From: Thiobacillus sp. 65-29
GTDB lineage: Bacteria > Pseudomonadota > Gammaproteobacteria > Burkholderiales > Thiobacillaceae
Direction: 5' to 3'
Length of the DNA stretch: 64,000 nt
Assembly: GCA_001899775.1 (NCBI GenBank)
Contig: MKWN01000016.1
Coordinates: forward strand, 124,001 to 188,000
Of the stretch, positions 8,668 to 42,936 are shown piece after piece. Each line of letters opens with the position of its first letter. Within the stretch, counting starts at the first letter, position 1. Below the pieces are notes generated by a model. That model was not told the DNA's origin. It saw only the letters and a program-made list of their open reading frames with translations, and did not search any database. The position numbers and the translations under genes are program-made.

Positions 8668-10632
8668 TCAGGCGCCCGCGCCTTCCAGTTCCTCGATCTG
8701 CCCTGACAGTTCCAGCCACTCCCCCTCTTCAATGGTCAACTCGTCAATGACATGCTGAAGCTGCTTGCCGGTTTCAGTAATCTCCTCGACTGAAAGCGCT
8801 TCGCCCAGACGGGCTTCGAACGCCGCCTTTTCCGCCTGTAGCGCAGCCATGCTTTTGTCGAGCTTCTCCAGTTTCTGCTTCAACGACTTGATCCTGCCCG
8901 ACGACACCAGCTTCTTCGCCGCAACCGGCGCAGGTTCCGCCCTGACCACTGGGGTTTCTGCCACCTTGCCGGCCTCCTTCAGGCTTTCGCGCACGCGCTT
9001 GCCCTCCTCCAGCAGATAGCGCTGGTAATCGTCGAGATCGCCGTCGAATGGCTCGACGCCGCCACGCGACACCAGCCAGAACTCGTCGCACACCGAGCGC
9101 AGCAGCGCGCGGTCGTGGCTCACCAGCATCAACGTGCCCTCGAATTCGTTCAGCGCCACCGCCAGGGCTTCGCGGGTGGCGAGGTCAAGGTGGTTGGTCG
9201 GCTCGTCCAGCAGCAGCAGGTTCGGTCGCTGCCACACCAGCATGGCGAGCACCAGCCGCGCCTTCTCGCCGCCGCTCATGGTGCCCACCGCCTGCTTGAC
9301 CATGTCGCCGCTGAAGTTGAAGGTGCCAAGAAAATTGCGCAGATCCTGCTCGCGGCTGCTGAACTGGCCGGCACCGCCGTTCGCGATCGTGTCGCGTGCC
9401 AAGCGAATCATGTGCTGCAGCGGCGTGTCGCCGGGGCGCAGCACGTCGAGTTCCTGCTGCGCGAAGTAGCCGATGTTGAGGCCGCGACCTTCGATGACCT
9501 CACCGGCGACCACCTTGAGCTCGCGCGCGATGGTCTTCACCAGGGTGGACTTGCCCTGGCCGTTGGCGCCGAGGATACCGATACGCTGCCCGGCGAAGAC
9601 GGACTTGCTGACGTGCCGCACGATCACGGTCGGCGGGGTGCCGGGCGGCGCATCGGCGGGCGGCGGGTAGCCGAAGCTGGCGTCGTCGATGGTCAGCATG
9701 GGATTGGGCAGGTTCTGCGGTTCCTTGAACTCGAAGGCGAACTCCGCGCTTGCCAGCATCGGCGCCAGTTTTTCCATGCGGTCCAGCGCCTTGACCCGGC
9801 TTTGCGCCTGCTTGGCCTTGCTGGCCTTGGCCTTGAAGCGATTGATGAACGCCTGCAGGTGGGCGATCTTGTCCTGCTGTTTGGCAAACGCCGCCTGCTG
9901 CAGCGCCATCTGCTCGGCACGCATGTCCTCGAAGGTGCTGTAGTTGCCGCCGTAGCGCGTCAACTGGCCGTTCTCGATGTGCAGGGTGACGTTGGTCACG
10001 GCATCGAGAAATTCACGGTCGTGGCTGATCACCAGCATGGTGCCGGAGTATTTTTTCAGCCAGGCTTCCAGCCATACCAGCGCGTCCAGATCGAGGTGGT
10101 TGGTCGGTTCGTCGAGCAGCAACAGGTCGGACGGGCACATCAGCGCGCGTGCCAGTTGTAATCGCATACGCCAACCGCCGGAGAAGCTGTTCACAGATTG
10201 ATTCAGCTCGCGCACCTGGAAGCCCAGGCCGAGGATCAGCGCCTGCGCGCGCGACTGCGCGTCGTGGGCGCCGGCGTCGTGCAGCGCCATGTAGGCGTGC
10301 GCCATGCGCTCGCCGTCGTCGCTGGCCTCGGCGGCTTCCACCTCACGCTGCGCCTCGGCAAGCTGGGTGTCACCGGCGATGACGAAGTCGGTCGCGGATT
10401 CGCTGGTCTCCGGCATGTCCTGCGCCACCTGCGCGAGGCGCCAGTGCGCTGGAAACGAGAAATCGCCCGCGTCCTCGTGCAGCATGCCGTTCAGCAGCGC
10501 AAACAGGCTCGATTTGCCAGCGCCGTTGCGGCCCACCAGGCCAATTTTCTCGCCCGGATTGAGCGACACCGACGCGCTGTCGAGCAGCACCTTCGCGCCG
10601 CGGCGCAACGTGAGATTCTTCAGGATGATCAT
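8668..10632 (-). CDS. ABC-F family ATP-binding protein (YheS-like)
   Basis: A 654-residue soluble protein with two ABC ATPase cassettes and no membrane segments. Cassette 1 has Walker A GRNGAGKSS, signature SFSGGW and LLLDEPTNHLDLDAL. Cassette 2 has GANGQGKST, MSGGEKARL and LLLDEPTNHLDLATR. A linker of about 80 residues joins them and a coiled-coil tail (from about residue 565) ends the protein. ABC-F proteins bind the ribosomal E site and relieve stalled translation; the length and tail match YheS more than EttA or Uup. The start is the ATG at 10632 before IILKNLTLRRG; the open frame upstream has no family similarity. Confidence 0.92.
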   Translation of the reverse strand: MIILKNLTLRRGAKVLLDSASVSLNPGEKIGLVGRNGAGKSSLFALLNGMLHEDAGDFSFPAHWRLAQVAQDMPETSESATDFVIAGDTQLAEAQREVEAAEASDDGERMAHAYMALHDAGAHDAQSRAQALILGLGFQVRELNQSVNSFSGGWRMRLQLARALMCPSDLLLLDEPTNHLDLDALVWLEAWLKKYSGTMLVISHDREFLDAVTNVTLHIENGQLTRYGGNYSTFEDMRAEQMALQQAAFAKQQDKIAHLQAFINRFKAKASKAKQAQSRVKALDRMEKLAPMLASAEFAFEFKEPQNLPNPMLTIDDASFGYPPPADAPPGTPPTVIVRHVSKSVFAGQRIGILGANGQGKSTLVKTIARELKVVAGEVIEGRGLNIGYFAQQELDVLRPGDTPLQHMIRLARDTIANGGAGQFSSREQDLRNFLGTFNFSGDMVKQAVGTMSGGEKARLVLAMLVWQRPNLLLLDEPTNHLDLATREALAVALNEFEGTLMLVSHDRALLRSVCDEFWLVSRGGVEPFDGDLDDYQRYLLEEGKRVRESLKEAGKVAETPVVRAEPAPVAAKKLVSSGRIKSLKQKLEKLDKSMAALQAEKAAFEARLGEALSVEEITETGKQLQHVIDELTIEEGEWLELSGQIEELEGAGA

Positions 10633-10740
10633 GCAGGCAAGCGGGGGGCGCGAAAGTCGCGCAAAACGAAAGCCGGATTCTACCGCGCCGGCCGTGTTTC
10701 CCCGTCCGATTGGGCGGATGTTCACCGCTTCGACACGACG

Positions 10741-10756
10741 TGACGGTTTTCCGTCA
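10741..10756. repeat. Inverted repeat upstream of the sigma-54 promoter
   Basis: TGACGG and CCGTCA flank TTTT, a perfect 6-bp inverted repeat. It lies about 105 bases before the -24 element of the small-gene promoter, in the range where enhancer-binding proteins of sigma-54 promoters bind. Its role as an activator site is inference. Confidence 0.35.
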
Positions 10757-10851
10757 GGATGTGCCAAAACCCGTGGCACCGCAGCCACGCACGAATCACC
10801 AACCGATTGTTTCGTCGGCGATTTTTTGTACCAGACCGACAGCCGTCCGTG

Positions 10852-10866
10852 TGGCACAGGCATTGC
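10852..10866 (+). promoter_or_regulatory. Sigma-54 (-24/-12) promoter for the tandem small genes
   Basis: TGGCACAGGCATTGC fits the sigma-54 consensus TGGCACG-N4-TTGC at 14 of the 15 positions (A for G at position 7), with the GG and GC pairs at the correct spacing. It lies 36 bases before the first small ORF and points towards it. Transcription would need an AAA+ enhancer-binding activator. Confidence 0.7.
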
Positions 10867-10902
10867 AGGTATTCAGGCAAACCCCTCGCCAAGGAGACCA
10901 TC

Positions 10903-11055
10903 ATGAAACTGCAATTCGGCAAGAACCAACTGGTCCTCGAACTCAGCGCCACCCCGTTCGCCTGGTTCCACGGCCAGACCGAACGCATGAGCCTCACCAG
11001 TCTGTCACTGATGTTCGTGCAATTCTCGCTGTTCGCCCGCCAGCCCGCCGTCTGA
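10903..11055 (+). CDS. Small protein of unknown function, tandem copy 1
   Basis: A 50-residue basic protein with no recognised family. It has a strong AAGGAG ribosome site seven bases before the ATG. The middle carries the motif FxGxTxRMSxxSxxLxFV (WFHGQTERMSLTSLSLMFV), shared with the next gene. Hydrophobic residues alternate (LVLELSA, SLSLMFVQF), suggesting beta strands rather than a membrane helix; no signal peptide or cysteine is present. Its stop overlaps the start of the second copy. A sigma-54-type promoter lies upstream. The shared motif and the ribosome site make it a real gene; its function is unknown. Confidence 0.75.
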   Translation: MKLQFGKNQLVLELSATPFAWFHGQTERMSLTSLSLMFVQFSLFARQPAV

Positions 11056-11210
11056 TGCAACTGGGCAAGGGCACGCGCGTGAGCCTCAGCCTGTCTGCTT
11101 CGCCGCTCGGTTTCTTCAGCGGCAGCACCGGCCGCATGAGCATGTTCAGCATCACGCTGCTGTTTGTCGAACTGCGGGTGCTGCGACGCAACGCAGCACC
11201 CTGCCTGTGA
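11055..11210 (+). CDS. Small protein of unknown function, tandem copy 2
   Basis: A 51-residue basic protein whose ATG shares one base with the stop of copy 1 (TGATG), so translation is probably coupled. The product reads MQLGKGTRVSLSLSASP, then FFSGSTGRMSMFSITLLFV, aligning with copy 1 through GK, LSAxP and FxGxTxRMSxxSxxLxFV: about 11 identities over the last 28 aligned positions. It ends in a more basic tail with one Cys. It probably arose from duplication followed by divergence. No known domain is recognised. Confidence 0.72.
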   Translation: MQLGKGTRVSLSLSASPLGFFSGSTGRMSMFSITLLFVELRVLRRNAAPCL

Positions 11211-11289
11211 CGCGCGCAGCGGACGCCGCCACAGCCGTGTCCGAAACGCACCAATGGAAACGGCCCGCTGTCGCAGGCCGTCTGGATTC

Positions 11290-11365
11290 TGGTGGGTCGG
11301 GCGAGATTCGAACTCGCGACCAACGGATTAAAAGTCCGCTGCTCTACCGGCTGAGCTACCGACCC
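11290..11365 (-). tRNA. tRNA-Lys (anticodon UUU)
   Basis: On the minus strand the sequence folds as a 76-base tRNA with acceptor GGGTCGG/CCGACCC, D-arm AGCTCAGCCGGTAGAGC, anticodon loop CTTTTAA (anticodon TTT) and T-arm GAGTTCGAATCTC, with an encoded CCA at 11290-11292. The pairing is complete and the invariant bases are present. Confidence 0.97.
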
Positions 11366-11471
11366 GAGGATGCCGGAGGGCATCCGCGAAAGCCCGCAAT
11401 TATAGATGAATTGATGATTTCCGGTAAAGCCCCGAAGCACGGAATTTTGTGCGGCAAGGAAGCCCGTGCAA

Positions 11472-40203: not shown

Positions 40204-41472
40204 TCATTTGAGCTTGTGAACACCCATCAGCTTCAGCACGTATTTTTCGTAAAGCGGTTCGGTGGTGCCGGCCTTCATCTTGCGCATGAAGTATTTCTCG
40301 AAGGCGACCTTGGCCAGATGCACCCACTTGCCTTCCTTGAACCAGTTGACGTTGCGCGGCGGGATCTGTGGCAGGGCGACAAAGGCAGCGCCGGAGTCAC
40401 CGAAGTCGGCGAGGCAGATGGCGTTCCAGGTGGCCTTTTCGTCCGGCTCGCGGCCGTCGATGAGGGCGCGGATGTTGTGCGCGCTGGCGGTGACCATGGA
40501 TTCGATCATGTAGCCGGTCTTCGGCGTGCCGGTGGGCACCGGGGTCGCCTCGACGGGCGGGATGGCGACGCATACGCCGACGGCGAACACGTTCGGGTAC
40601 TTGGGATTGCGCTGGTGGGCATCGATGGCGATGAAGCCGCGCGGGTTGGTGAGGCCCTCGATGCCAAAGACGGCGTCGATGCCCTTGAAGGCGGGCAGCA
40701 TCATGGAATAGGCGAACGGCAGTTCATGTTCCTTGATGACCTCGCCTTTATCGTTGTGCTCGGCGACGAACATCTTGCCTTCCTCGACCTTGGTGACCTT
40801 GGCGTTGCAGATCCACTTGATGTGGCGCTGGCGCATGGCCGATTCGAGCATGCCCTTGGAGTCGCCCACGCCGCCGAGGCCGAGATGGCCGATGTAGGGC
40901 TCGGAGGTGACGAAGGTCATCGGCACCTGGTTGCGCAGCTTGCGGCGGCGCAGGTCGGTATCCATGATCATGGCGAACTCGTACGCGGGACCGAAGCAGG
41001 ATGCACCCTGCACCGCGCCGACGACGATGGGACCGGGTTTCTTGACGAAGTCATCCCACGCCTTGCCTGCCGCGATGGCATGGTCGACGTGGCAGATCGA
41101 CTGCGTATGCGCGGCCGGGCCAAGGCCCGGGATTTCGTCGAAGGCGAGCTTCGGTCCGGTGGCGATGACGAGATAGTCATAGTCGAGGGTGCGGCCGTCG
41201 GTCAGCTCGATCTGGTTCTTTTCCGGATGCACGCGCGCCGCGCCCACCGGAATGAAGTCGATGTTCTTCTTCTTGAGATAAGGCCCGGCTTCGATCGTGA
41301 TGTCGTCGCGTTTGCGCCAGTTCACCGCGACCCAGGGATTCGACGGCGTGAACTGGAAATACGAGAAGTTGGAAATGACGGTGACCTTGTCTTCCGCCCG
41401 CGCCGATTCGCGCATTTCGTAGGCCATGGTCATACCGCCCACGCCCGCTCCGAGAATCACGATGTGTGCCAT
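40204..41472 (-). CDS. sqr: Sulfide:quinone oxidoreductase, type I
   Basis: 422 residues. The N-terminal FAD-binding motif is VILGAGVGGMTMAYEM. Three catalytic cysteines, C127 (TQSICHVDHA), C159 (GASCFGPAYEF) and C353 (NAICLADFG), match the C128/C160/C356 set of Acidithiobacillus ferrooxidans SQR. The block IPPVEATPVPTGTPKTGYMIE is also shared. SQR is a membrane-surface flavoprotein that oxidises sulfide to polysulfide and passes electrons to quinone. The ATG at 41472 precedes AHIVILG; the upstream frame has no similarity. It is divergent from fisR and preceded by a -24/-12 promoter. Flavocytochrome c sulfide dehydrogenase is the main alternative, but no cytochrome subunit is present. Confidence 0.92.
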   Translation of the reverse strand: MAHIVILGAGVGGMTMAYEMRESARAEDKVTVISNFSYFQFTPSNPWVAVNWRKRDDITIEAGPYLKKKNIDFIPVGAARVHPEKNQIELTDGRTLDYDYLVIATGPKLAFDEIPGLGPAAHTQSICHVDHAIAAGKAWDDFVKKPGPIVVGAVQGASCFGPAYEFAMIMDTDLRRRKLRNQVPMTFVTSEPYIGHLGLGGVGDSKGMLESAMRQRHIKWICNAKVTKVEEGKMFVAEHNDKGEVIKEHELPFAYSMMLPAFKGIDAVFGIEGLTNPRGFIAIDAHQRNPKYPNVFAVGVCVAIPPVEATPVPTGTPKTGYMIESMVTASAHNIRALIDGREPDEKATWNAICLADFGDSGAAFVALPQIPPRNVNWFKEGKWVHLAKVAFEKYFMRKMKAGTTEPLYEKYVLKLMGVHKLK

Positions 41473-41510
41473 TGTTTGTCCTTGGTTGAGTGAATGACAA
41501 CTGGAGCCAT

Positions 41511-41525
41511 GCAACAGGCGTGCCA
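41511..41525 (-). promoter_or_regulatory. Sigma-54 (-24/-12) promoter of sqr
   Basis: On the minus strand TGGCACGCCTGTTGC matches the sigma-54 consensus TGGCACG-N4-TTGC at every position. It lies 39 bases before the sqr ATG. The activator is almost certainly the divergent FisR-like protein. Confidence 0.85.
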
Positions 41526-41587
41526 GCCCCGCCAACCCGCGTCGTCCCGGGCTCTTTCACTTGCGCTTCCGTTTGACATGACCGATA

Positions 41588-41634: not shown

Positions 41635-42936
41635 ATGGATATAGCACTTCAAAGCCTGATCGACACCCACAGGCAGCCGTTCGTGGTGATCGACCGCAAC
41701 TACCGCATCGTCGCGGCGAACCGGCGCTACTGCAGCGCGCATGGCCTGACGCCGGCCGACATCGTCGGCAAGACCTGTCACGCCGTGTCCCACCATTCGG
41801 ACCGGCCCTGCCACGAAAACGGCGAGGACTGTCCGCACCAGGCACTGTTCAGCCACGGCGAGGCAGTCGAGGTCGTGCACACCCATTTCCACGACGACAA
41901 GCCGGAGCGCACCCGCATCTGCGGTCATCGCCTGGTGGGCGCATCCGGCGAAATTTACCTCGGTGAACAACTGTTTCCGCTGGAAGCGGAGGCGTGCAGC
42001 GACTGCGACACGTTGCAGATGGTGGGCCGTTCGCCCGCCTTTCTCGCCTGTGTCGACCATCTCGCGCGTGTGGCGGAAAGCGAGGCGCCAGTGCTGCTGT
42101 ACGGGGAGAGCGGCGTCGGCAAGGAACTCGCGGCGCGCTTCATCCACGCGCGTTCGAACCGTTCCGGCGCGTCGTTCATCGTCATCAACTGCGCAGCGGT
42201 GCCGGAAAGCCTGTTCGAAAGCGAGCTGTTCGGCCACGAACGCGGCGCGTTTTCCGGCAGCAGCGGGTTGAAGAAGGGCCTGTTCGAACTCGCCGACGGC
42301 GGTACCCTGTTCCTTGACGAAGTGGGCGAGATCCCGCTCGGCCTGCAGGCCAAACTGCTGCGCGTGCTCGAAACCGGGGAATTCCGCCGCGTCGGCGGCA
42401 CGCAGACGCTGAGCGCCGACGTGCGCGTAGTCTCCGCCACCAACCGCAAACTGCTCGACGAGATCGACGCGCGGCGTTTTCGCCTCGACCTGTATTACCG
42501 CCTGGCGGGTATCGTGGTCACCCTGCCGCCGCTGCGCGACCGGCGCGCCGACCTGCCCGAACTGACCGCTTTCCTGCTGCGCCGCCTGAGCGGCGGCGAC
42601 GCCGTCCACCAACTCGATCCCGGTGCGCTCGCTGCACTCGCGGGCTACGATTTTCCGGGCAACGTGCGCGAACTGCGCAACCTGCTGCAGCAGGCGATGC
42701 TCAATTGCCGCGACGGCATCATTCGTGCCGGGGATCTCAGACTGCCCACGCCTGCGGGCCAGCCGGTGTTTGTGTCCCCGGCGACGAATGTGGCCCGGCC
42801 GCTGTACGAAGTGGAACGCGCGCACATCCAGTCCCTCCTCACGCACCACCAGGGCCATCGCGCACGCGTCGCCACGGCGCTCGGCATTACCGAGCGCACG
42901 CTATATCGCAAGCTGAAGCGGCATGGCCTGGGCTGA
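41635..42936 (+). CDS. fisR: Sigma-54-dependent persulfide sensor/regulator, FisR-like
   Basis: 433 residues. The N-terminal PAS-like domain (about 1-120) holds C48, C59 and C66. The 11- and 7-residue spacing equals that of C53/C64/C71, which I recall as the sulfane-sulfur-sensing cysteines of Cupriavidus FisR; C33 is extra. The AAA+ domain (about 130-355) has Walker A GESGVGKE and Walker B LFLDEVGE; the sigma-54 contact loop reads GAFSGS instead of GAFTGA. A Fis-type helix-turn-helix ends the protein (RVATALGITERTLYRKLKRHG). It should activate sqr when polysulfide builds up. No ribosome site is clear at the ATG. MutY follows four bases after the stop. Confidence 0.88.
   Translation: MDIALQSLIDTHRQPFVVIDRNYRIVAANRRYCSAHGLTPADIVGKTCHAVSHHSDRPCHENGEDCPHQALFSHGEAVEVVHTHFHDDKPERTRICGHRLVGASGEIYLGEQLFPLEAEACSDCDTLQMVGRSPAFLACVDHLARVAESEAPVLLYGESGVGKELAARFIHARSNRSGASFIVINCAAVPESLFESELFGHERGAFSGSSGLKKGLFELADGGTLFLDEVGEIPLGLQAKLLRVLETGEFRRVGGTQTLSADVRVVSATNRKLLDEIDARRFRLDLYYRLAGIVVTLPPLRDRRADLPELTAFLLRRLSGGDAVHQLDPGALAALAGYDFPGNVRELRNLLQQAMLNCRDGIIRAGDLRLPTPAGQPVFVSPATNVARPLYEVERAHIQSLLTHHQGHRARVATALGITERTLYRKLKRHGLG

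Follow-up and report, generated by a model that had tools for sequence, protein, structure and literature searches.

What do two overlapping reading frames of about 50 codons each make when they sit behind a sigma-54-type promoter in Thiobacillus sp. 65-29, and is the product a protein at all? Both frames lie in the 64,000-nucleotide stretch of contig MKWN01000016.1 that we analyzed (hereafter the window), part of a host genome of 2.9 Mb over 61 contigs. An earlier note had read them as coupled paralogous genes of no known family, under a regulated promoter and with a two-part, beta-structured product.

Positions 10741–11210 of the window hold a complete sigma-54 unit, comprising a palindrome, an IHF-like site, a −24/−12 promoter, a ribosome-binding site and the two overlapping ORFs. 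The palindrome TGACGGTTTTCCGTCA (10741–10756, no strand assigned), which starts at the first base of the region described earlier and was not named there, is a putative upstream activator site for a sigma-54 enhancer-binding protein. Between it and the promoter, an IHF-like site (10800–10812, minus strand) matches WATCAANNNNTTR with one mismatch and may be bound by IHF. The promoter, TGGCAC-AGGCA-TTGC within TGGCACAGGCATTGC (10852–10866, plus strand), is conserved across loci, and the ribosome-binding site AAGGAG (10891–10896, plus strand), mostly kept in the upstream alignment, stands 6 nt ahead of the ORF1 ATG. An inverted repeat, GTGCCA-N7-TGGCAC (10761–10779), occurs in the window only and was set aside because it is not kept in the alignment.

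ORF1 (10903–11055, plus strand, 50 amino acids) is predicted to be helix-free and all-strand, and ORF2 (11055–11210, plus strand, 51 amino acids) is its paralogue; both assignments draw on conservation, selection and structure models. The ORF1 stop and the ORF2 start form TGATG, in which the A is common to both (a 1-nt overlap), and translational coupling of ORF2 appears probable because it lacks a clear ribosome site of its own. Paralogy and the shared GK, LSAxP and FxGxTxRMSxxSxxLxFV motifs, seen in both ORFs, are as first described. In the window an ABC-F-like ATPase gene (identified by eye) lies upstream, divergent from the pair; downstream are a tRNA (11293–11365, minus strand) and a gene for a thioredoxin-fold (AhpC-TSA) protein.

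A protein-coding pair across Thiobacillus

A first search with each protein as query, run against 40 relatives and the host genome itself, showed that 20 of the 25 Thiobacillus genomes (own genome included) carry the pair, and in the 16 genomes of other families it gave matches only at E of 0.07 or worse. With an ORF1 profile the pair was found in 48 of the 56 genus genomes searched and in all 27 of high quality (completeness of 90% or more, contamination of 5% or less). Each of the eight genus genomes without it is either below 90% complete or above 5% contaminated, two of them being 94 and 99% complete. All 48 carriers have exactly two matches, adjacent to each other, and an ABC-F gene lies upstream in all 39 named loci. 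The pair is thus one locus, core to Thiobacillus.

For sequence comparison, 39 named contigs were fetched, giving 81 sequences in all with the window included; the 44 loci compared are those that differ in the pair and, coming from overlapping collections, represent 44 sequences and not 44 species. ORF1 is 78–98% identical to the other genus sequences found, and identity for ORF2 is 63–84% in a 27-row alignment (A2). Synonymous variation far exceeds nonsynonymous variation in both frames, with pS 0.339 and pN 0.065 for ORF1 (43 distinct sequences; pN/pS about 0.19) and pS 0.392 and pN 0.120 for ORF2 (41 distinct sequences, restricted to those with ATG at the usual place and to the first 45 codons; pN/pS about 0.31). 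Variation at codon positions 1, 2 and 3 is 0.089, 0.038 and 0.252 in ORF1 and 0.187, 0.083 and 0.285 in ORF2. Both ORFs are under purifying selection and evolve as proteins, and this conservation and substitution pattern rules out chance or artefact. The doubt raised by the earlier note, that homologues or protein-level constraint might be missing, is settled: both were found, and the two small overlapping genes are real.

The 1-nt overlap is present in 40 of the 44 loci as counted from the alignment, as TGATG in 38 and TAATG in two. Among the other loci, L025 (genome G010) has a longer ORF1 tail that alters the overlap geometry, L056 and L059 have a 2-nt gap between the ORFs, and in L067 the gap is wider. 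A protein tree sets ORF1 strongly apart (100/100), and its columns are too few for dating the duplication.

Promoter elements and single-copy relatives outside the genus

Within the 2.9-Mb genome the exact 15-mer TGGCACAGGCATTGC occurs once, and the perfect palindrome TGACGGTTTTCCGTCA has no other exact copy. In the window alone the −24/−12 pattern with up to one mismatch was found eight times against 6.7 expected, and the palindrome with up to two mismatches three times against 4.4 expected; neither motif being above chance there, their significance comes from comparison across loci. Over its 11 positions TGGCAC-N5-TTGCA is exact in 40 of the 44 genus loci and has one mismatch in four, so that the sigma-54-type promoter proposed earlier is conserved, at one mismatch or fewer, in all 44. 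The palindrome, TGWCGG-N4-CCGTCA, is exact in 38 of these loci, with one mismatch in four and four mismatches in two. Spacing varies little, at 109–113 bp from palindrome to −24 and 50–54 bp from −24 to ATG. The IHF-like minus-strand match with one mismatch is present in 27 of the 44 loci and perfect in none; about 4% of shuffles reach one or fewer mismatches on either strand.

Genome-wide, 38 of the 56 genus genomes hold TGACGG-N4-CCGTCA and the promoter together at this spacing, and a reversed control gave no such site. There is one such site per genome, except for two in G056, and by coordinates every site except the second in G056 sits directly before the pair. With one mismatch allowed, the palindrome has 11 sites in the genome against eight for the reversed control, so a wider regulon is not visible. 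We regard sigma-54 control of the pair as very probable. The two sites of G056 lie in one region (L152; G056:C32:78500-84500), one before c-type cytochrome-like genes (by eye) and the other before an intact pair about 2.7 kb further on, which would fit a duplication of the promoter.

Relatives outside the genus were sought with a joint ORF1–ORF2 profile and then a wider profile in 399 genomes of the order (twice, in overlapping draws), and with a class-wide profile search run once over 370 genomes, which gave no other match outside the order. In total, 12 genomes carry single-copy relatives, in three other families (G189, G224, G256, G286, G316 and G345 of f50; G336 and G837 of f35; G083 of f29) and in one other genus, g19, of the same family as the window. 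The g19 relative in G341 is weak at E 2.8e-4 but syntenic, and those in G143 and G251 were found upstream of glyQ, in an inspection of 60 genomes chosen from 196 with a match; only these two of the 60 had a small gene there. Both genomes had been searched and missed by the order-wide wider profile, with the best 16 candidates scored per genome, so other genomes may also carry the small gene. Two further weak profile matches were dropped, one in G303 that runs antisense to an aspartase/fumarase-like gene (by eye) and one in G544 with an internal stop and no promoter.

Each of the 12 genomes has one match, of about 50–60 residues, reading on longer in G224, G256 and G286; in these three (L159, L163 and L164, respectively) a conserved R-x-W follows the family core before the reading continues. 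Identity to ORF1 is 18–32% where aligned, and T-x-R is nearly invariant in the relatives' alignment, from which G143 and G251 are omitted. The expectation that such genes always come as adjacent pairs thus held for all 48 carriers in the genus and failed outside it; with pairing confined to Thiobacillus, the two-part product that had been suggested does not define the family.

The promoter accompanies the relatives as well. TGGCAY-N5-TTGC was found with at most one mismatch in 12 of 12 (seven exact), 39–58 bp before the start used, and the opposite strand had three to four mismatches in all 12. (The G286 alignment row lacks its first residue, and its true promoter distance is 3 less than computed.) When the 90 upstream bases were shuffled, the observed match was reached in no more than 0.23% of trials for 11 of the 12; the G837 site, at 39 bp, falls just outside the range of the shuffle scan, where that genome scored three mismatches (P 0.12).

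The palindrome is less regular. Palindrome-like sites with two mismatches lie at 110–111 bp in G336, G837 and G143 (shuffle P 0.02, 0.04 and 0.07), and sites with a wider centre and two to three mismatches lie at 98–99 bp in G224, G256 and G286 (P 0.27, 0.36 and 0.04), about one helical turn less; here P is the chance of so good a match at any position of the stretch scanned, and the genomes are not independent. The other six (G189, G316, G345, G083, G341 and G251) have no clear palindrome. As read from the DNA, the spacing is suggestive and the single matches are weak. A perfect WATCAANNNNTTR is found ahead of the promoter in three of the 12, G224, G256 and G286, beginning 28–29 bp before −24. 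A gene family with this promoter can be taken as close to certain.

Predicted product and alternative readings

The family is apparently undescribed in Pfam, NCBIfam, PHROGs, PADLOC and PDB, in keeping with the initial impression. The two proteins of the window had no Pfam or NCBIfam match up to E 10. PHROGs gave nothing significant: none of 28 ORF1 rows had a match, and two families were each hit by a single ORF2 row (E 0.14 and 0.4). PADLOC matched none of 29 rows, and a PDB sequence search with ORF1 gave a best E of 0.67. In the literature searched we recognized no description of the pair, which may stand among chromosome annotations as a "hypothetical protein" entry.

AlphaFold models of both proteins are built entirely of strands, which agrees with the proposed beta structure at the level of prediction. 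ORF1 is modeled as helix-free with five strands (mean pLDDT 85.5, pTM 0.55; five models, 74.8–85.5), and ORF2 as helix-free with four strands (best pLDDT 85.1, the other four 54.9–76.4; pTM 0.58), a predicted structure that is uncertain. On these models we consider a beta fold likely. Foldseek searches with the ORF1 model gave nothing under E 0.001 in PDB (best 0.28) or among viral models, where the best match, at E 0.033, was an unnamed viral protein of 52 residues (TM 0.77, 8% identity). The strand path resembles those of the RseB sheet (2v43_B; E 0.28, not significant) and of XCL1 in its alternative, all-beta form (2jp1; E 0.97, not significant; TM 0.54 by target length), both at 7–8% identity to ORF1. 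Hydrophobic residues seem by eye to occupy both sheet faces, and for that reason a dimer would be expected.

A HAMP-HisKA-HATPase kinase gene, accompanied by an OmpR-type regulator (by eye), lies tail-to-tail with the pair, within about 80 bp downstream, in 33 of the 36 genus loci whose sequence extends far enough on that side. In G341, G143, G251 (the other genus of the family) and G837 (another family) the kinase gene, again tail-to-tail, and glyQ flank the single gene, which places it at a corresponding position in two families. PmrD acts as a connector on PmrA, and by analogy the induced small protein could bind the adjacent kinase or regulator and alter its output. The pair proteins would share with PmrD-type connectors a small soluble beta structure, regulation by one system and, going by gene adjacency, a proposed action on a two-component system, but they are smaller, and no sequence or fold match was found. 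The kinase gene is however not beside the pair in L042, L064, L065 or the window, nor nearby in six of the eight outside contexts fetched (L167, L168, L170, L171, L172 and L174). It also stands beside glyQ without the small gene in G098, G183 and G246; the neighborhood is thus independent of the small gene, and adjacency alone is no proof of a functional link. We consider a connector dedicated to this kinase improbable.

Hardly different in likelihood, and also improbable, is the reading in which the transcript is the main product, as a sigma-54-driven regulatory RNA or antisense, with the peptides secondary. Stand-alone short genes under sigma-54 often make sRNAs, as with GlmY, Qrr and CrcZ, and transcription convergent with the same tail-to-tail kinase gene would silence the two-component operon by antisense read-through; in G341, G143 and G251 the 3′ ends of the small gene and the kinase gene overlap, as read from coordinates. 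Set against this reading are the protein-level constraint on the two ORFs, the loci listed above in which the kinase does not adjoin, and an Rfam scan of 10500–11450 in which only the neighboring tRNA rose above its gathering score.

The genes are short, duplicated, patchy outside the genus and under a regulated-type promoter, as would suit a small toxin, a peptide like a bacteriocin or an accessory gene of a mobile element, yet the pair is a single core locus in the genus, has by eye neither a signal sequence nor a processing motif, and returned nothing from PADLOC, nothing significant from PHROGs and no ORF1 match among 72,556 plasmids or 50,697 phages, leaving this reading very unlikely. 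Least probable of all is membership of a PrsR-controlled PEP-CTERM regulon: PrsR is encoded in the genome, but by eye the pair proteins lack a signal peptide, a PEP motif and a transmembrane segment at the C terminus, and the activator motif described for that regulon differs from the palindrome, as set out below.

Candidate activators and the favored explanation

The genome has 15 matches to enhancer-binding ATPases, nine of them full-length, among which curated cut-offs identify one NtrC and one PrsR (L094; TIGR02915 above its cut-off) and one is GlrR-like, below cut-off. None of the nine could be linked to the pair, and the wider contexts of seven gave no clearer lead. An activator-like site upstream of the enhancer-binding gene L097 (two mismatches) is at chance level, such matches occurring in four of the nine loci scanned.

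PrsR is not supported as the activator. Passages of PMC1569441 (Haft 2006) describe a sigma-54 motif upstream of many PEP-CTERM genes in Proteobacteria, mostly in single-gene units with long upstream regions, and a probable activator motif beside the −24/−12 motif, features that the pair resembles. The motif given there (motif 1) has TTTACA at its end and precedes the promoter motif by a mean of 62.8 nt, unlike TGWCGG-N4-CCGTCA at about 110 bp as compared by eye, and the PEP-CTERM products are predicted to be exported and sorted, whereas the pair proteins have about 50 residues and no visible export signal.

GlrR is likewise not supported, as several carriers gave no match to it. Tested with NF011695 at E <= 1e-120 on the best 21 candidates per genome, GlrR was present in eight of eight genus carriers and in G336, G837, G083, G224 and G256, but was found in none of the three g19 carriers (G341, G143 and G251) and was missing from the matches in four of the six f50 carriers (G189, G286, G316 and G345). 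GlrR (QseF) with sigma-54 drives short genes such as glmY, and the pair resembles glmY-type genes in its TGTC-like arms, IHF-assisted type of sigma-54 promoter and small stand-alone product; it differs in that the arms there are 10 bases apart and here eight, and in that the product here is a protein. The string TGTCN10GACA occurs in a passage of PMC8745638.

Two divergent genes of the window (41635–42936, plus strand, and 40204–41535, minus strand) are an enhancer-binding gene, L100, whose product has cysteines in its N-terminal part, and a gene for what by eye looks like a sulfide:quinone-oxidoreductase-type flavoprotein. Two TGTCATGACA repeats lie between these genes, and an exact sigma-54 element (41511–41525, minus strand) is directed towards the flavoprotein gene. 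We take this arrangement to resemble a FisR-type sulfide switch.

Overall, the explanation we favor, with moderate confidence, is a sigma-54-controlled family of small beta proteins that was duplicated to a coupled pair in Thiobacillus. Its members would be helix-free beta proteins of about 50–60 residues, and each gene would have a sigma-54 promoter of its own. Judging from the DNA architecture, an enhancer-binding protein would bind at the palindrome, some 110 bp upstream; IHF would bend the spacer between palindrome and promoter, and ATP-dependent activation would switch on an otherwise silent promoter. Elsewhere the relatives are single genes, and in Thiobacillus the gene exists as two paralogues that are probably coupled in translation. 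The product would be a soluble cytoplasmic beta-sheet dimerizing via a sheet face, as a homodimer from single genes and as an ORF1–ORF2 heterodimer in Thiobacillus; the heteromer is a close call on which we lean slightly to the negative. We infer that a dimerizing soluble adaptor or connector, inducible and modulating another protein, is the most likely kind of product, rather than an enzyme or secreted peptide; the adaptor role itself is a guess and rather doubtful. That the unit has one or two genes, with neighbors that vary between families, would agree with a product that acts in trans.

None of the families searched matches the product, and the kind of regulation is already known. Somewhat unlikely is a private circuit in which one enhancer-binding protein serves essentially one sigma-54 target per genome and the only output is a helix-free, 50-residue beta protein of an undescribed family, in Thiobacillus a coupled heteromeric pair; this protein would then be an inducible adaptor of a new kind, and the circuit would have escaped notice because standard family models do not suit genes this short. 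Since the promoter is of the enhancer-dependent type and there is one defined palindrome, signal and activator should be findable by simple genetics. More broadly, family libraries can miss a group of small proteins under long-range, sigma-54-type control even though it is conserved across bacterial families. The one reported here, apparently undescribed, is strongly supported by comparison between genomes and belongs to the core of a genus of sulfur oxidizers with environmental importance.
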